64,000 nt of DNA, from the NCBI GenBank assembly GCA_002869385.1, contig PKTB01000006.1:152509-216508 (forward strand), written 5' to 3'. Position 1 is the stretch's first letter. Each line of letters begins with the position of its first letter. The translations under genes and the position numbers were made by a program. Positions 6,776 to 64,000 of the stretch are shown piece after piece. The DNA comes from Marinilabiliales bacterium (GTDB lineage: Bacteria; Bacteroidota; Bacteroidia; Bacteroidales; ML635J-15). The notes beneath the pieces are model-generated. The model was given only the letters and a program-made list of their open reading frames with translations, searched no databases and was not told where the DNA came from.

Positions 6776-6841
6776 CTTTGATCTAAAAATAACATCCCAT
6801 ATCATTTATTTAATGATTTTTTCTTATATTGCATTCATTGA

Positions 6842-9800
6842 TTGAGAAATAGCTACGACATGAGAAGATTTTTTACTTTAGCATTTATAATGCTCACTAT
6901 TACTGGCTTTGCACAATTAAGAACAAGTGTAATCTCCAGCTTTTCTGAAAATGAAACAAGTATAATAGCATATAAAATTGATGAGCCTGTTATTCGCGAT
7001 GTAAATGGTGGATATGGATTTATCCTCAAAACTCCCATAGAGTTTACATCTTGTGCTGTCGGTTGGAAGTCCAGTACAAATAATTATCCTGCCGGACTAT
7101 TTTAGCTTGTTTATAAAATTCATAAACCTGGAAAAGGTTGGACCGACTGGCAAATTGATGATGGATTTACAAATCCGGGTGATGCACGAACAGATTTTTA
7201 TCAATCTGACCTACTTTTTGGAATAGATGAATATACTCATGATTCAATTGAGTTTTATATCCACTGTCCTGAAGGTGAAGAGATTACAGAAGTTTATTTA
7301 ATTCTACAAGATATTAGTAAATCTATTGATGCAGATGCTATTTTAGAAGGCGACACTAATGGTTCTAAAGCATGTCCAGAATTACCTGCAATTATACCAC
7401 GATCAGAATGGTGCGGTTCATATACTTAATGTCATAATCCAACTTATGCTGTTACATACAGAACTCCTACACATACAGTTATTCATCATGGTGCAAGTCC
7501 TGATTCATACACAGATGGGTATGCGATAGTTAGATCTTACTGGAATTATCATGTAAATTATAATGGGTGGAGCGATATAGGGTATAATTATCTTGTTGAC
7601 AAATACGGAAATCTTTTCCAAGGAAGGCACAATCCAAGTATGCCATACACAGATGTTCATGGTGCACATGCAGTGTATTCAAACACATATTCTATCGGCG
7701 TTAACTTTCTTGGGAACTCCGATGCTCCTGAAACAGCCCCAACAACTCCACAATTGCAAAAATGTGCCGAATTTCTTGCATGGTGGTTCGATTATAAAGG
7801 CTACGACCCATTATCATCAGCAAGTATTTTAAACCAAGCAGGAACAGAATGGATAACAGAACCTTTAATTTGTGGACACCGTGATGTAAATCCGGGCGGT
7901 ACAACATGTCCCGGAGATGCTTTATATGCACTTTTACCAGACATCAGAACTTCAACAAATCAGATAATCATTGATTGTTCAAGTCCGTCAGATACAGAAG
8001 CCCCAACTACATCAATCTCTACTGACAGAAATTGGTATAATTCAGAATTCGAAGTAATGTTTTCTGATGCCGACAATGCTGGTGGCACAGGTGTAAAATA
8101 CAGCTTTCATCAAATAATGGACTATGATGGCACTGAATGGAGAGCAAATTCTGATAATGGTTTCTTTAATGATAACTTCACATCAGCTATACATAGCGAA
8201 TGGACTCAACTTGATGGGACATGGTCAATAAATTCAGAACATTTACTACAATCAGACGAGACAACAAGTAACTCTAATATATATGCAAGTGTAAGTCAGG
8301 AAGCAGGGAATACTTATCTTTATCACTGGCAGCAAAAATTATCCGGTTCTGGTGCAAACAGAAGGTCAGGCATGCATGTTTTCTGTAGTGATCCAACAGA
8401 TAGTGGCCGAGGTGATTCATATATGATCTACCTTAGAGTTGACAAAAACACTGTTCAGATTTATGAATATGATGATGGTTCATATGCTAATCCTGACGGA
8501 TGGTTAATCACTGAAGATTTTACAATTGATGTAGACACCTGGTATGATGTTAAGCTTATAATCAATACAAATACCGGAATAATCGATTTATATATCGATG
8601 ATGTTTTAGCTGCTTCAGCAACTGATATTACCCCTCTTACAACAGGAATAGCTATTTCTCCACGCACAGGTGATTGTCAAACAGAGTATGACGACATTAA
8701 AGTCTATACACATAGAAATAATACAATAGATGTCTTGCCTGTAATCTCAACAGAGGCCGACATACGTTACCAAAGCCCTTCTACAACTGAAGAAGCCGGA
8801 AGAATTAGAACGATTTTAATTGATAATGCAGATAATTGGTCAGAAAGTGTTTCTAAAAATATCTTTACAGATTTTGATGCTCCATCAACAAGTATAAATG
8901 TTAGCGGAAGCTGGCAAACTGATGATTTTACAAGTAATTTCACAGATACCGATGATTTAAGTGGTATAGAAAAAAGTTTGTATTGTGTATCAGATTTTAA
9001 TGGATCAAAATGGACTGCAAATATGGAAAACGGATTTGCCTACAATTCATTTGATTCAGAAATCGGTACTGAATGGACTAGTCAAGTAGGAACATGGACC
9101 CAGTCATCAGGAAAATTAGTACAAACAGACGAAACAGAAGGTAATACAAACTTATATGCTTATTTACAACAAGATCTATCAAACAGATATTTATATGAAT
9201 TTGATTTAACAATTGACGGAACTGATGCTAATAAACGTGGTGGGTTCCACTATTTCAGTGATGATCCTACACTAACAAATCGCGGAAATGGTTACTTTGT
9301 TTGGTTTAGATGGTCAAGTCAGGAATTAGAATTCTACAAAGTTACTGATGATGTTTTCTCACTAGAAAAATATTACGATATCGAATTAATTGCAGGACAA
9401 TCTTATAACATCAAAGTAATTTACGACAGAATTACAGGTGATACTTTTGTTTATATGGATGATATCTTAGTTGGTGAATACAAAGATTCCGAGCCGTATA
9501 ATACAGGTAATTATGTTTCTTTCCGCAGTGGAAATTCTAACATGTCAATTGATAATTTTAAAGTTTACAGATCCAGATATCCGGATGCAACAATTACATT
9601 ATCAGAAACAACAGATGACATCAGGTACGAGAGTGTCTCGCCCGGCAATGACGCGGCTATGATATATTCAATTGTACACGACTCTGCCAAAAATATTTCA
9701 GCTACTACAACTATTGGAGTCAAAGTTGACTGGACAGGACCAATAACCAGTGGATCTGTTTATGATGGTAGTTCAACAGATATTGACATCACCTACGAAC

Positions 9801-17070: not shown

Positions 17071-17166
17071 AATTATTCAACTCTAAGATAGACAACTTTA
17101 AGCTTTTTTTTTCGTTTTAATAATAAAGAAACTGAAAATATTTGGCACTCTTCAGTTTCAAATTTT

Positions 17167-60606: not shown

Positions 60607-61104
60607 ATGATTTCAGACAATACTAAAAATAACTGGTATGCTTTGCGTACTATCCCCCACAAAGAGCGGCATGTATGTACGGAACTTAATTCCAGAGATT
60701 ATGAGTATTATTTACCGCTATACAAAATCTATTACGACAAGAATAAGTATAAAGAAAAAATTCTTATTTCCTACTACGTCTTTGTTTACTTATCCGAAAA
60801 AGATTTTGAAAAAATTCGATTTATACCTGGTAGTAGAGGTTTGCTTTTATATGATTTTGTCCCAGCAATTGTAAAGCGTGAAGAGATAGAAGTTTTGCGT
60901 TTAATTTGCGGAGAACTGGATTTAGAACCAGAGGTAAATACACTAGTGCCCGGTGAAAAAGTAAAAATCCTAAATGGGGTATTAAAAGGTTATACTGCAA
61001 GGGTTTGCGAATGCAAATCGAACAAATTAGGTATAGAGATATTAGAGAATGGTTTTACCATCTGGATTAACGGAAAAGATTTACTATACGAAAGCGTTAA
61101 ATAA
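60607..61104 (+). CDS. NusG-like / UpxY-RfaH type transcription antitermination protein
   Basis: NNWYALRTIPHKERHVCTELNSRDYEYYLPLYK NGN-like domain; LVPGEKVKILNGVLKGYTARVCECKSNKLGIEIL KOW-like. Confidence 0.85.
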   Translation: MISDNTKNNWYALRTIPHKERHVCTELNSRDYEYYLPLYKIYYDKNKYKEKILISYYVFVYLSEKDFEKIRFIPGSRGLLLYDFVPAIVKREEIEVLRLICGELDLEPEVNTLVPGEKVKILNGVLKGYTARVCECKSNKLGIEILENGFTIWINGKDLLYESVK

Positions 61105-61374: not shown

Positions 61375-62715
61375 ATGATAAAGACAAGAAAAATACAAAT
61401 TAACGGAGAGAATAGATTAGCATTAAGTTTTAGGTATGATGCTGATATTATTTCAAAGATAAAAAGGCTATCAGAATCCAGATGGATAGCAACAAGACGT
61501 TTATGGCATTTACCATATAATCGGATTTCGGCAAATGAATTACGCTTAATTTTTCCGGACATTGAATTACCTGCAGATTTGGTTTCATGCACGATATTTA
61601 AGGATAGCAATAGCAATGATAGATTAATAATTTCGAAAAAAAGACTTTATGTCTTTTCTGATTTTAGTGATGAAGAGATTGATTTTCTTAAATCGATAAC
61701 ATATTGTCGATGGTCATATACTCGTAAGTGTTTTGAGTTACCTAATTATGGAAATAACTTAAGAAAGATTCGTTCATTTTTTGCAGGTAGGTTACATGAG
61801 ATTGAGTGGAATCAATCAGAGTTTGCAAAAGAAGAGAATATAGACGAATTTCATAAAATTATTATTAAAACGCCTGATTATGTTGATCCATTGATTAAAA
61901 AAATGGAGAAATGGTTAAGGTACAGGCGTTACAGTGAATCGACAATACAGTCATATACTGATGGTGTGAGGATATTTTTATCATTTTGTTCACCAAAGAA
62001 GCCTGAAGAGATTGACAATAAGGATATGATAAGATTTGTAAACGAGTATATAGTTCCGAACTCGTATTCATATTCATTTCAGAATCAGGTCATTAATGGA
62101 GCAAAGATATTTTTCCGTGAGGTTATGATGACTGATTTGGATGTAGAAAAATTTGAACGTCCTAGAAAGGAAAGGAAATTACCCAATGTATTAAGTAAGT
62201 TAGAGGTAAAGCGGATATTGGGTGTATTAAAGAATCAGAAGCATCGTACTATTTTAAGTTTAATATATGCGTGTGGCTTAAGGCGTTCTGAGGTTTTAAA
62301 TTTACATCCGGATGATATTGATTCGTCCAGGTTATTTCTTATTATTAGGAACTCAAAGGGTAAGAAGGACAGGTTAGTTCCGATTTCGGAGAATATTTTG
62401 GATATTTTACGTGAGTATTACAAGGTTTACAGGCCTTCTGTGTGGTTATTTGAGGGCAGCACTCCTGGCGAGCGATATTCGGAGCAAAGTTTACAGAGTG
62501 TTTTCAAGCAGGCAATAAAGAAGGCTGGAATCAGGAAGCCTATTACATTACATGGTTTACGACATTCATACGCAACGCATTTATTGGAATCAGGTGTTGA
62601 TCTGCGGTATATTCAGGAGTTATTAGGTCACAGAAATAGTAAAACTACTGAGATTTACACACATGTTAGTAAGAAGAATTTAGGAAACATTCCTTCTCCA
62701 TTTGATTTATTATAG
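61375..62715 (+). CDS. Tyrosine recombinase, integron-integrase-like by context, with N-terminal extension
   Basis: ACGLRRSEVLNL, RNSKGKKDR, HGLRHSYATHLLESG, LGHRNSKTTEIYTHVS catalytic motifs. Confidence 0.93.
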   Translation: MIKTRKIQINGENRLALSFRYDADIISKIKRLSESRWIATRRLWHLPYNRISANELRLIFPDIELPADLVSCTIFKDSNSNDRLIISKKRLYVFSDFSDEEIDFLKSITYCRWSYTRKCFELPNYGNNLRKIRSFFAGRLHEIEWNQSEFAKEENIDEFHKIIIKTPDYVDPLIKKMEKWLRYRRYSESTIQSYTDGVRIFLSFCSPKKPEEIDNKDMIRFVNEYIVPNSYSYSFQNQVINGAKIFFREVMMTDLDVEKFERPRKERKLPNVLSKLEVKRILGVLKNQKHRTILSLIYACGLRRSEVLNLHPDDIDSSRLFLIIRNSKGKKDRLVPISENILDILREYYKVYRPSVWLFEGSTPGERYSEQSLQSVFKQAIKKAGIRKPITLHGLRHSYATHLLESGVDLRYIQELLGHRNSKTTEIYTHVSKKNLGNIPSPFDLL

Positions 62716-62808
62716 AAAAAGATTAATTTTACAAATAGGTATGATAAAAACCATACATACACTCCCCACAGGAAACATTATATGTGATTTTTTCATACAC
62801 ATAAACTA

Positions 62809-62817
62809 GTTATAGGC
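62809..62817. other. Putative attI/cassette junction core G^TTATAGGC
   Basis: GTTATAGGC between integrase and first cassette ORF; exact reverse complement of the GCCTATAAC box at 63724-63732. Confidence 0.6.
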
Positions 62818-62837
62818 AAATTTAAAAAACCAGTACC

Positions 62838-63731
62838 ATGAAAAAAACCACAATTTTTATTATCGCTCTATTGAGCACATTCTTATCGTTTTCTCAAGAA
62901 TATCACAAATTCCCGACATCAAATGCAATCTGGAATTACAAAATAGTTGGTAGTTTATCTTATCCATACGAATGGCCAGTTACTGTCGATCTTGGAGGCG
63001 AAATCACTATAGGCTCATACGACTATGTCGAAGTCTATAGAAATTCATATATAGTAGGAGCTATTAGAGAAGATACACTACAAAAAAAAGTATACTTCCA
63101 TAATTTTACAAATGAAATAGTACTTTACGACTTTTCTTTAGAAGTTGATGATACAATTTATTATTCTACCAACTTAAATTACAACCTTGATTATTACAAA
63201 GTGGTAAACAGTATTAGTACCATAGAAGTCTCTGGGCAATTAAGAAAAGTATGGTATCTAACCAATTCATACATGGACATGCCAGACATATGGATTGAAG
63301 GAATTGGAAGTGTTTATAGATATGGACTACTCTATCCAAACGACCCTGATATTGTAATGGATGCATCAACACCAATTTTTGGTTGTTTTTCACATGACAC
63401 AATTACATATATCGTAACTGATGTTTGTGCATCAGGTTGTCCTTGTAATGATTGGCTTGTAGAAAACGAGGAAAATGTCAACAAAGATGAGATTATAAAC
63501 ATTTTCCCAAATCCAGTTAAAAATTGTTTAAAATTAACTATTAATGACGAAATCTTTTCCTATAAAACACTTCAACTATTCTCCTCCAATGCAAAATTAA
63601 TCAGTGAAATTGAAATAGTCTCAGATCAATTCGAAATTGATATGGGGTCCATGGCAGATGGAGTCTATTACATTAAATTATTGGGTGATAAAAAAACGAC
63701 AATGAAGAAGTTTATAAAAATCAGCCTATAA
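62838..63731 (+). CDS. Putative cassette 1: secreted protein with T9SS type A sorting domain
   Basis: Signal peptide MKKTTIFIIALLSTFLSFSQ; NIFPNPVKNCLKLTI...YYIKLLGDKKTTMKKFIKISL; stop codon lies inside the putative R'' box. Confidence 0.8.
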   Translation: MKKTTIFIIALLSTFLSFSQEYHKFPTSNAIWNYKIVGSLSYPYEWPVTVDLGGEITIGSYDYVEVYRNSYIVGAIREDTLQKKVYFHNFTNEIVLYDFSLEVDDTIYYSTNLNYNLDYYKVVNSISTIEVSGQLRKVWYLTNSYMDMPDIWIEGIGSVYRYGLLYPNDPDIVMDASTPIFGCFSHDTITYIVTDVCASGCPCNDWLVENEENVNKDEIINIFPNPVKNCLKLTINDEIFSYKTLQLFSSNAKLISEIEIVSDQFEIDMGSMADGVYYIKLLGDKKTTMKKFIKISL

Positions 63732-63922
63732 CAACACCTATATGTAATGCGAAAAGCGGATGTAACCGTTCGTGAGTCACGCTTCCGTTCACCGCCAAAT
63801 TTTTTGATTTGGCTTTTACTACAAAATTTAAAAACAAAATACAAAAAATCTGGCTCAGTGGGAACTCTTACGAAGGAATCGCTATTCCTTTTTCGCACTC
63901 CACATAGCTGCAACCGTTAGCC
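63724..63922. repeat. attC-like long imperfect inverted repeat
   Basis: GCCTATAAC (63724-63732) with GTTAGCC (63916-63922); CTATATG (63738-63744)/CACATAG (63901-63907); TGCGAAAA (63748-63755)/TTTTCGCA (63890-63897); CCAAATTTTTTG (63795-63806)/CAAAAAATCTGG (63842-63853). Confidence 0.65.
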
Positions 63923-63942
63923 ACAATATTAAAATTCACATT

Positions 63943-64000
63943 ATGCGAACAATTATAACCTCGCTCTTTTTACTAAACGTATTAATCTGTTTATGTCAGG
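63943..64000 (+). CDS. Putative cassette 2 ORF, truncated by window end (signal-peptide N-terminus)
   Basis: MRTIITSLFLLNVLICLCQ from ATG 63943. Confidence 0.5.
   Translation, partial: MRTIITSLFLLNVLICLCQ

Follow-up and report, generated by a model that had tools for sequence, protein, structure and literature searches.

The closest described systems are the canonical integrons, class 1 and chromosomal (IntI1 and VchIntIA), and the chromosomal integrons of Treponema. In integrons, a circular cassette brings along its own R' half, which makes its opening bases complementary to the R'' that closes it, and known attC sites acquire their strand bias through extrahelical bases. The related recombinases XerA, XerC, and XerD act on dif-type sites that are not accompanied by cassette arrays. 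In Treponema, the integrase, described as IntI, is transcribed toward attI, in the direction of the cassettes (PMC3607928). Within Bacteroidetes proper, a survey named Salinibacter ruber as the sole source of complete integrons (PMC9024848), and among taxon-specific attC models, for which taxa with <50 sites were excluded, none is available for Bacteroidota (PMC8352920).

Here, we describe a locus at the right edge of a 64-kb stretch of DNA (the window). Like canonical integrons, it combines a tyrosine recombinase and an attI with a GTT core with arrays of single same-strand ORFs split by attC sites, own-start complementarity, and a bottom-strand folding bias. It differs from them in having no IntI-specific insertion, in its HARP-like N-terminal repeats, in the separate clade of its integrase, in an attI located 3' of a codirectional integrase, and in fixed A.C/G.T mispair columns. 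Reading the sequence, we are highly confident that the locus is the head of a sedentary, Bacteroidota-specific integron; its catalysis, use of folded single strands, and promoter function are inferred. We found no earlier description of such a system in the open-access literature (the search did not extend to preprints or to most subscription journals).

The locus at the contig end and its putative continuation

The window is the terminal 64 kb of contig C14 (216,508 bases), whose end is the window's right edge, in a fragmented assembly of 28 contigs and 4.25 Mb with 6.8% contamination. A sequence-only reading of the window had proposed a tyrosine recombinase, a secreted-protein ORF, and a 199-bp inverted repeat; all three were confirmed, by profile searches and by recurrence of the element on contigs C8 and C5. 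The following features were assigned (a slash within a core marks the cut).

60607 to 61104, + strand: UpxY/NusG-family antiterminator-like gene directly 5' of the integrase (Pfam, NCBIfam)
61375 to 62715, + strand: tyrosine recombinase (integron integrase, 446 aa; Pfam, NCBIfam, motif and tree analysis)
61396 to 61542, + strand: N-terminal HARP-like repeat 1 (aa 8 to 56; family HMM, E = 4.2e-18)
61624 to 61770, + strand: N-terminal HARP-like repeat 2 (aa 84 to 132; family HMM, E = 4.3e-15)
62701 to 62732, + strand: candidate promoter of the cassettes (Pc), TTTG-N19-TAATTTTA, similar to the Bacteroidota sigma consensus
62735 to 62815, + strand: predicted attI, left part repeat-rich, core CATAAACTA/G/TTATAG; TATAAACnAGTT motif conserved in relatives
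62810 to 63916, + strand: cassette 1, with ORF 62838 to 63731; start GTTATAGGC complementary over 9 nt to the cassette's own 3' core GCCTATAAC
63724 to 63922, + strand: attC-like site of cassette 1, 199 bp; R'' at 63724 to 63732 (GCCTATAAC), R' G/TTA with G63916
63917 to 64000, + strand: start of cassette 2, with a signal-peptide ORF from 63943 broken by the contig end (sequence)

The ORF of cassette 1, separated from the integrase gene by a short leader, encodes a secreted protein with a T9SS Por_Secre_tail, as judged by profile search. BLAST located five further copies of the 199-bp element on C8, at 69 to 94% identity, and a truncated one on C5. The reverse complement of C8 opens with ACCGTTAGCC, the tail of the 199-bp element, meaning that this contig end lies inside a site. 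The last 16 kb or so of C8 hold successive single ORFs on one strand, most of them with a site related to the 199-bp element behind them, up to an rluD-like gene of opposite orientation. Because the C8 end starts with a site tail and then runs for 16 kb as a same-strand array of ORFs and sites, C8 is very probably the continuation of C14 and carries the missing array, the join itself being inferred. This ~16-kb array supports the earlier proposal that the window ends inside an integron-like cassette array. Extending the contig rightward, as had been suggested, proved impossible because C14 ends at the window edge, but the related sites and ORFs looked for there were present on C8.

Two further observations concern sites and cassettes. 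A lone truncated site amid unrelated genes (C5:101641-101780; L007) is possibly an off-array cassette insertion. At L009:8291-15208, paralogous lipoprotein-like proteins (TIEKRSYQPGYYVDWHN) occupy four cassettes, which suggests cassette duplication, and one further cassette codes for a ParE/ParD-like pair.

Cassette starts complement their own ends

At the head of the array, GTTATAGGC at attI lies opposite the GCCTATAAC that closes cassette 1; start and core pair in the same manner in the cassettes of C8 (GTTAGCC/GGCTAAC, GTTAGCG/CGCTAAC, GTTAGCA/TGCTAAC, and GTTACCG/CGGTAAC). Across the window/C8 array, starts matched their own 3' cores at 45 of 66 variable positions, against 30.3 when permuted, a value reached in 0 of 20,000 permutations. 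In 44 homologous loci with enough sequence, an exact 9-nt complement of the GTT 9-mer after the integrase was present at 32 (control mean, 7.5; maximum, 12) and an exact 10-nt complement at 19 (control, 2.3). Furthermore, the main ORF lay on the array strand in 51 of 53 ORF-bearing cassettes. This start/core complementarity is the signature of integron cassettes cut at G/TT.

These data bear on whether the platform has decayed in this genome, leaving an integrase and sites that have lost the ability to recombine. In keeping with decay, sites at the distal end of C8 are truncated (at 9601, 14451, and 16248 in C8 reverse-complement coordinates), and some cassettes show a poorer own match. Against this, the match is exact in proximal window/C8 cassettes, a site on C8 shares 94% identity with that of the window, and the integrase is intact, with all invariant catalytic residues (R303, K328, H393, R396, H419, and Y428) present. 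We therefore consider decay unlikely.

An integrase outside the IntI family

The integrase matched Pfam Phage_integrase (E = 1.8e-41) and SAM_4 (E = 1.4e-16), and its nearest solved structure is VchIntIA (2a3v). It shares with XerA, XerC, and XerD the core fold and a short spacing of catalytic motifs: KGxKxR and HxLRH lie 59 to 67 aa apart (nearly always 64 to 65) in every measurable family member, compared with 106 in IntI1 and the canonical IntI measured. Residues 181 to 242 of VchIntIA align opposite only 20 residues. By motif spacing, the IntI-specific additional domain around patch III is absent from all family members that could be measured. In the tree, canonical IntI, those from the phylum's other classes included, make up a 100/99 clade to which the window family does not belong; the monophyly of the whole new integrase family remained unresolved.

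A merely diverged canonical integron, with an IntI of known family, would account for several features: the best NCBIfam model is the integron integrase TIGR02249 (219.6 bits), the layout is codirectional as in Treponema, and the canonical aadB cassette shows own-start complementarity too. However, the score falls under the 265-bit cut-off, the members measured have no IntI-specific insertion, the IntI clade leaves the window integrase outside, and canonical IntI occur in only 1 of 395 genomes of the class, compared with 109 of 398 in a phylum-wide sample. This explanation is very improbable. On the evidence of insertion, clade, and profile cut-off, the integrase is outside the IntI family. 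The 10-nt core was tried as a distinction from class 1 integrons and dropped, since the aadB cassette has a 10-nt core as well. The sequence-only reading of this locus as a Bacteroidota integron-like system was thus supported, with the qualification that the integron is not a canonical one; its comparison of the codirectional integrase and cassettes with Treponema (PMC3607928) also held.

In most family members, a 49-aa repeat is present at the N terminus in one to three copies. Against Pfam HARP, the best member reached 23.7 bits (E = 3.6e-5; cut-off, 25); in a profile search of the PDB, HARP of SMARCAL1 was the top match (E = 0.0024), and in a Foldseek fold search it ranked first (4o66; E = 0.09). 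The evidence that the repeats are related to the HARP domain is therefore weak, resting on a similarity of sequence and predicted fold, and any function in the integrase is inferred. The HARP domain of SMARCAL1 binds forked DNA; we know of no role for HARP in recombinases. An association of arrays solely with repeat-bearing members was discarded: L042 and L049 have arrays without an N-terminal repeat, so this domain is not strictly needed. The full-length AlphaFold model was poor (pLDDT, 50) and unfit for fine claims.

Relatives in Bacteroidota

Integrase homologues (E <= 1e-60) were present in 163 of 395 sampled genomes of the class (about 41%), a figure that counts integrases and not proven arrays. 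In line with the earlier expectation that homologous integrases elsewhere would be followed by arrays of related sites, an integrase with an adjacent cassette array on a single contig was found at homologous loci (L036, L037, L039, L064, L070, and others). No convincing array was seen near the integrase homologue in L043, L046, L047, or L048. A contig end lay within 3 kb 3' of the integrase in 29 of 46 matches and 5' in 1 of 35 (Fisher P = 5e-9), an excess to be expected because repeat arrays break assemblies. Named relatives include Flavobacterium, Chryseobacterium, and Fulvitalea, and cassette-bearing plasmids also occur in Empedobacter and Bacteroides. Homologues on viral contigs were mostly weaker (<=46% over the core, one short match excepted).

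attC sites with a fixed mispair

The attC of cassette 1 is foldable throughout, with CCGTTA ending at 63919 and A.C mispair columns at A63742 and A63747; its bottom strand folds at -36.5 kcal/mol, compared with -26.7 kcal/mol for the top strand. With DNA folding, the bottom strand was the more stable in all 10 complete sites of the window genome and in 45 of 58 sites of relatives. The sites meet the attC hallmarks of R''/R' cores, L''/L', an imperfect palindrome, a variable middle, and bottom-strand bias. The distance from AAC to GTT was 117 to 119 nt in 42 of 58 sites; relatives' sites mostly measure ~127 bp, and those of the window genome (~195 to 220 bp) are long members of this family. The predicted ~200-bp sites with a GTTRRRY core were accordingly right in length for the window but not for most of the family, and the core is GTTRNNN.

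At position 15 after AAC, in the L stem, 49 of 58 sites have an A.C on the top strand, which is a G.T wobble on the bottom strand; over all sites, A.C and G.T columns on the top strand stood at 115:30. This fixed mispair favors folding of the bottom strand and, to the extent that folding predictions hold, points to bottom-strand use, the use of a single strand being inferred. An Rfam search of the locus returned nothing but a chance mir-208 match. Separately, several sites at L009 (reverse complement, 6816-9700) contain an inserted CCGCCATGGCGG/CCGCCGCGGCGG palindrome pair, as though both site arms had been invaded by a REP-like element.

attI and a likely cassette promoter

The attI motif TATAAACnA/GTT is conserved in relatives, mostly ~95 nt 3' of the integrase stop. 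In the window, crossover is inferred to fall between G62809 and T62810. Directly after the integrase stop, a Bacteroidota-type -7 box (TAnnTTTG) was found at 21 of 60 homologous loci (shuffles: mean, 2.9; maximum, 8), and because of this, a promoter reading into the cassettes likely lies between integrase and attI, its function being inferred from the motif; the window copy of Pc differs from the consensus at one base.

The gene 5' of the integrase matched Pfam NusG (E = 2.5e-11) and NCBIfam antiterm_UpxY (E = 1.5e-21, below its cut-off). A UpxY homologue 5' of the integrase was otherwise present only in L032, L035, L037, and L038, of the window's own lineage. UpxY was consequently dropped as a general part of the system, being confined to these five loci of one lineage. 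In these, the protein possibly aids transcription through the hairpin array, a role that is inferred.

Inferred cassette movement and resistance genes

On a Chryseobacterium plasmid (L103), a single 172-bp ORF-less cassette is found both at attI and after three attC sites with exact GTT edges, its four copies lying at 17077, 19172, 21553, and 24622. Excision and insertion by the integrase are inferred from these natural junctions only. A second attI-like copy is present on the same plasmid (L103:31647-31745). Short homologues without N-terminal repeats adjoin IS91-family transposases (L104:15897-17839 and L023); we rejected the idea that the window gene stems from an IS91 helper. That the repeats are an interspersed, MITE-like family of long palindromes unrelated to the recombinase, itself an ordinary Xer or IS91 helper, finds some footing in these transposase neighbors and in the REP-like CCGCCATGGCGG inserts, but it is barely tenable against own-start/R'' complementarity, an attI motif tied to the integrase stop, single-ORF units on one strand, and an identical cassette at both attI and attC junctions.

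Two clinically important resistance genes, blaVEB and tet(X), lie in DNA that bears this cassette signature. An Aeromonas plasmid carries, in order, a truncated integrase relative, an attI-like leader, and blaVEB-3. Together, L107:4133-5754 (NZ_CP083462.1) and L108:1202-2272 (NZ_MK388209.1) show blaVEB in the first cassette position behind the attI of such a truncated, Bacteroidota-type integrase and, where blaVEB resides in class 1 integrons, a homologous sequence that starts at the same G/TT; the VEB attC is of Bacteroidota type, with a 10-nt match and the A.C column. Elements of 133 to 135 bp flanking blaVEB are known from the literature (PMC10656743, PMC3668210). Both blaVEB-1 and tet(X2) have exact 10-nt matched cassette ends.

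The plasmid-borne "xerD" beside tet(X3) in Acinetobacter, reported from up to 86% of 249 genomes (PMC8635130), is likewise related to the window integrase and truncated, and tet(X3) is the first cassette behind it. In Bacteroides xylanisolvens, tet(X2) shows the pair GTTATGTGCC/GGCACATAAC and is flanked at either end by attC-like sites. The tet(X) gene of Empedobacter brevis is bounded in the same way, but no more than 7 of 10 bases agree between its own R'' and the start. Thus, tet(X3), tet(X), and tet(X2) (L111:4019-6150 [NZ_CP041297.1], L213:698-2030, and L214:2501-3800) are bounded like cassettes of the window integron type. The direction of transfer of the blaVEB and tet(X) cassettes is inferred.

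Discussion

From sequence alone, an attI, an array, own-start complementarity, precise junctions in several contexts, and a mispair favoring the bottom strand are apparent. In the Bacteroidota-specific integron that we propose, the recombinase at 61375 to 62715 would excise and insert circular single-gene cassettes at G/TT, with a double-stranded attI just 3' of its gene pairing with an attC used as a folded bottom strand, and the cassettes would be transcribed from the promoter between integrase and attI. More speculatively, the HARP-like repeats, replacing the missing IntI insertion, may help to grip attC in its folded single-stranded form, and RNA polymerase may be able to pass the hairpins thanks to the UpxY-like protein encoded upstream. 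It is conceivable, though we doubt it on present evidence, that this is a second, independently assembled integron, in which a Xer-like recombinase without the IntI insertion gained HARP-like fork-binding repeats for folded single-stranded sites, spread across Bacteroidota, and became the source of the blaVEB and tet(X) cassettes in proteobacterial pathogens.

With integrase homologues in about 41% of sampled class genomes, a large gene-capture system in Bacteroidota seems to have gone unnoticed; the probable reason is that the models used for searching require the IntI insertion. With this system, one can test whether the recombination of folded single strands depends on that insertion, and this Bacteroidota integron type is a concrete candidate origin for blaVEB and tet(X).
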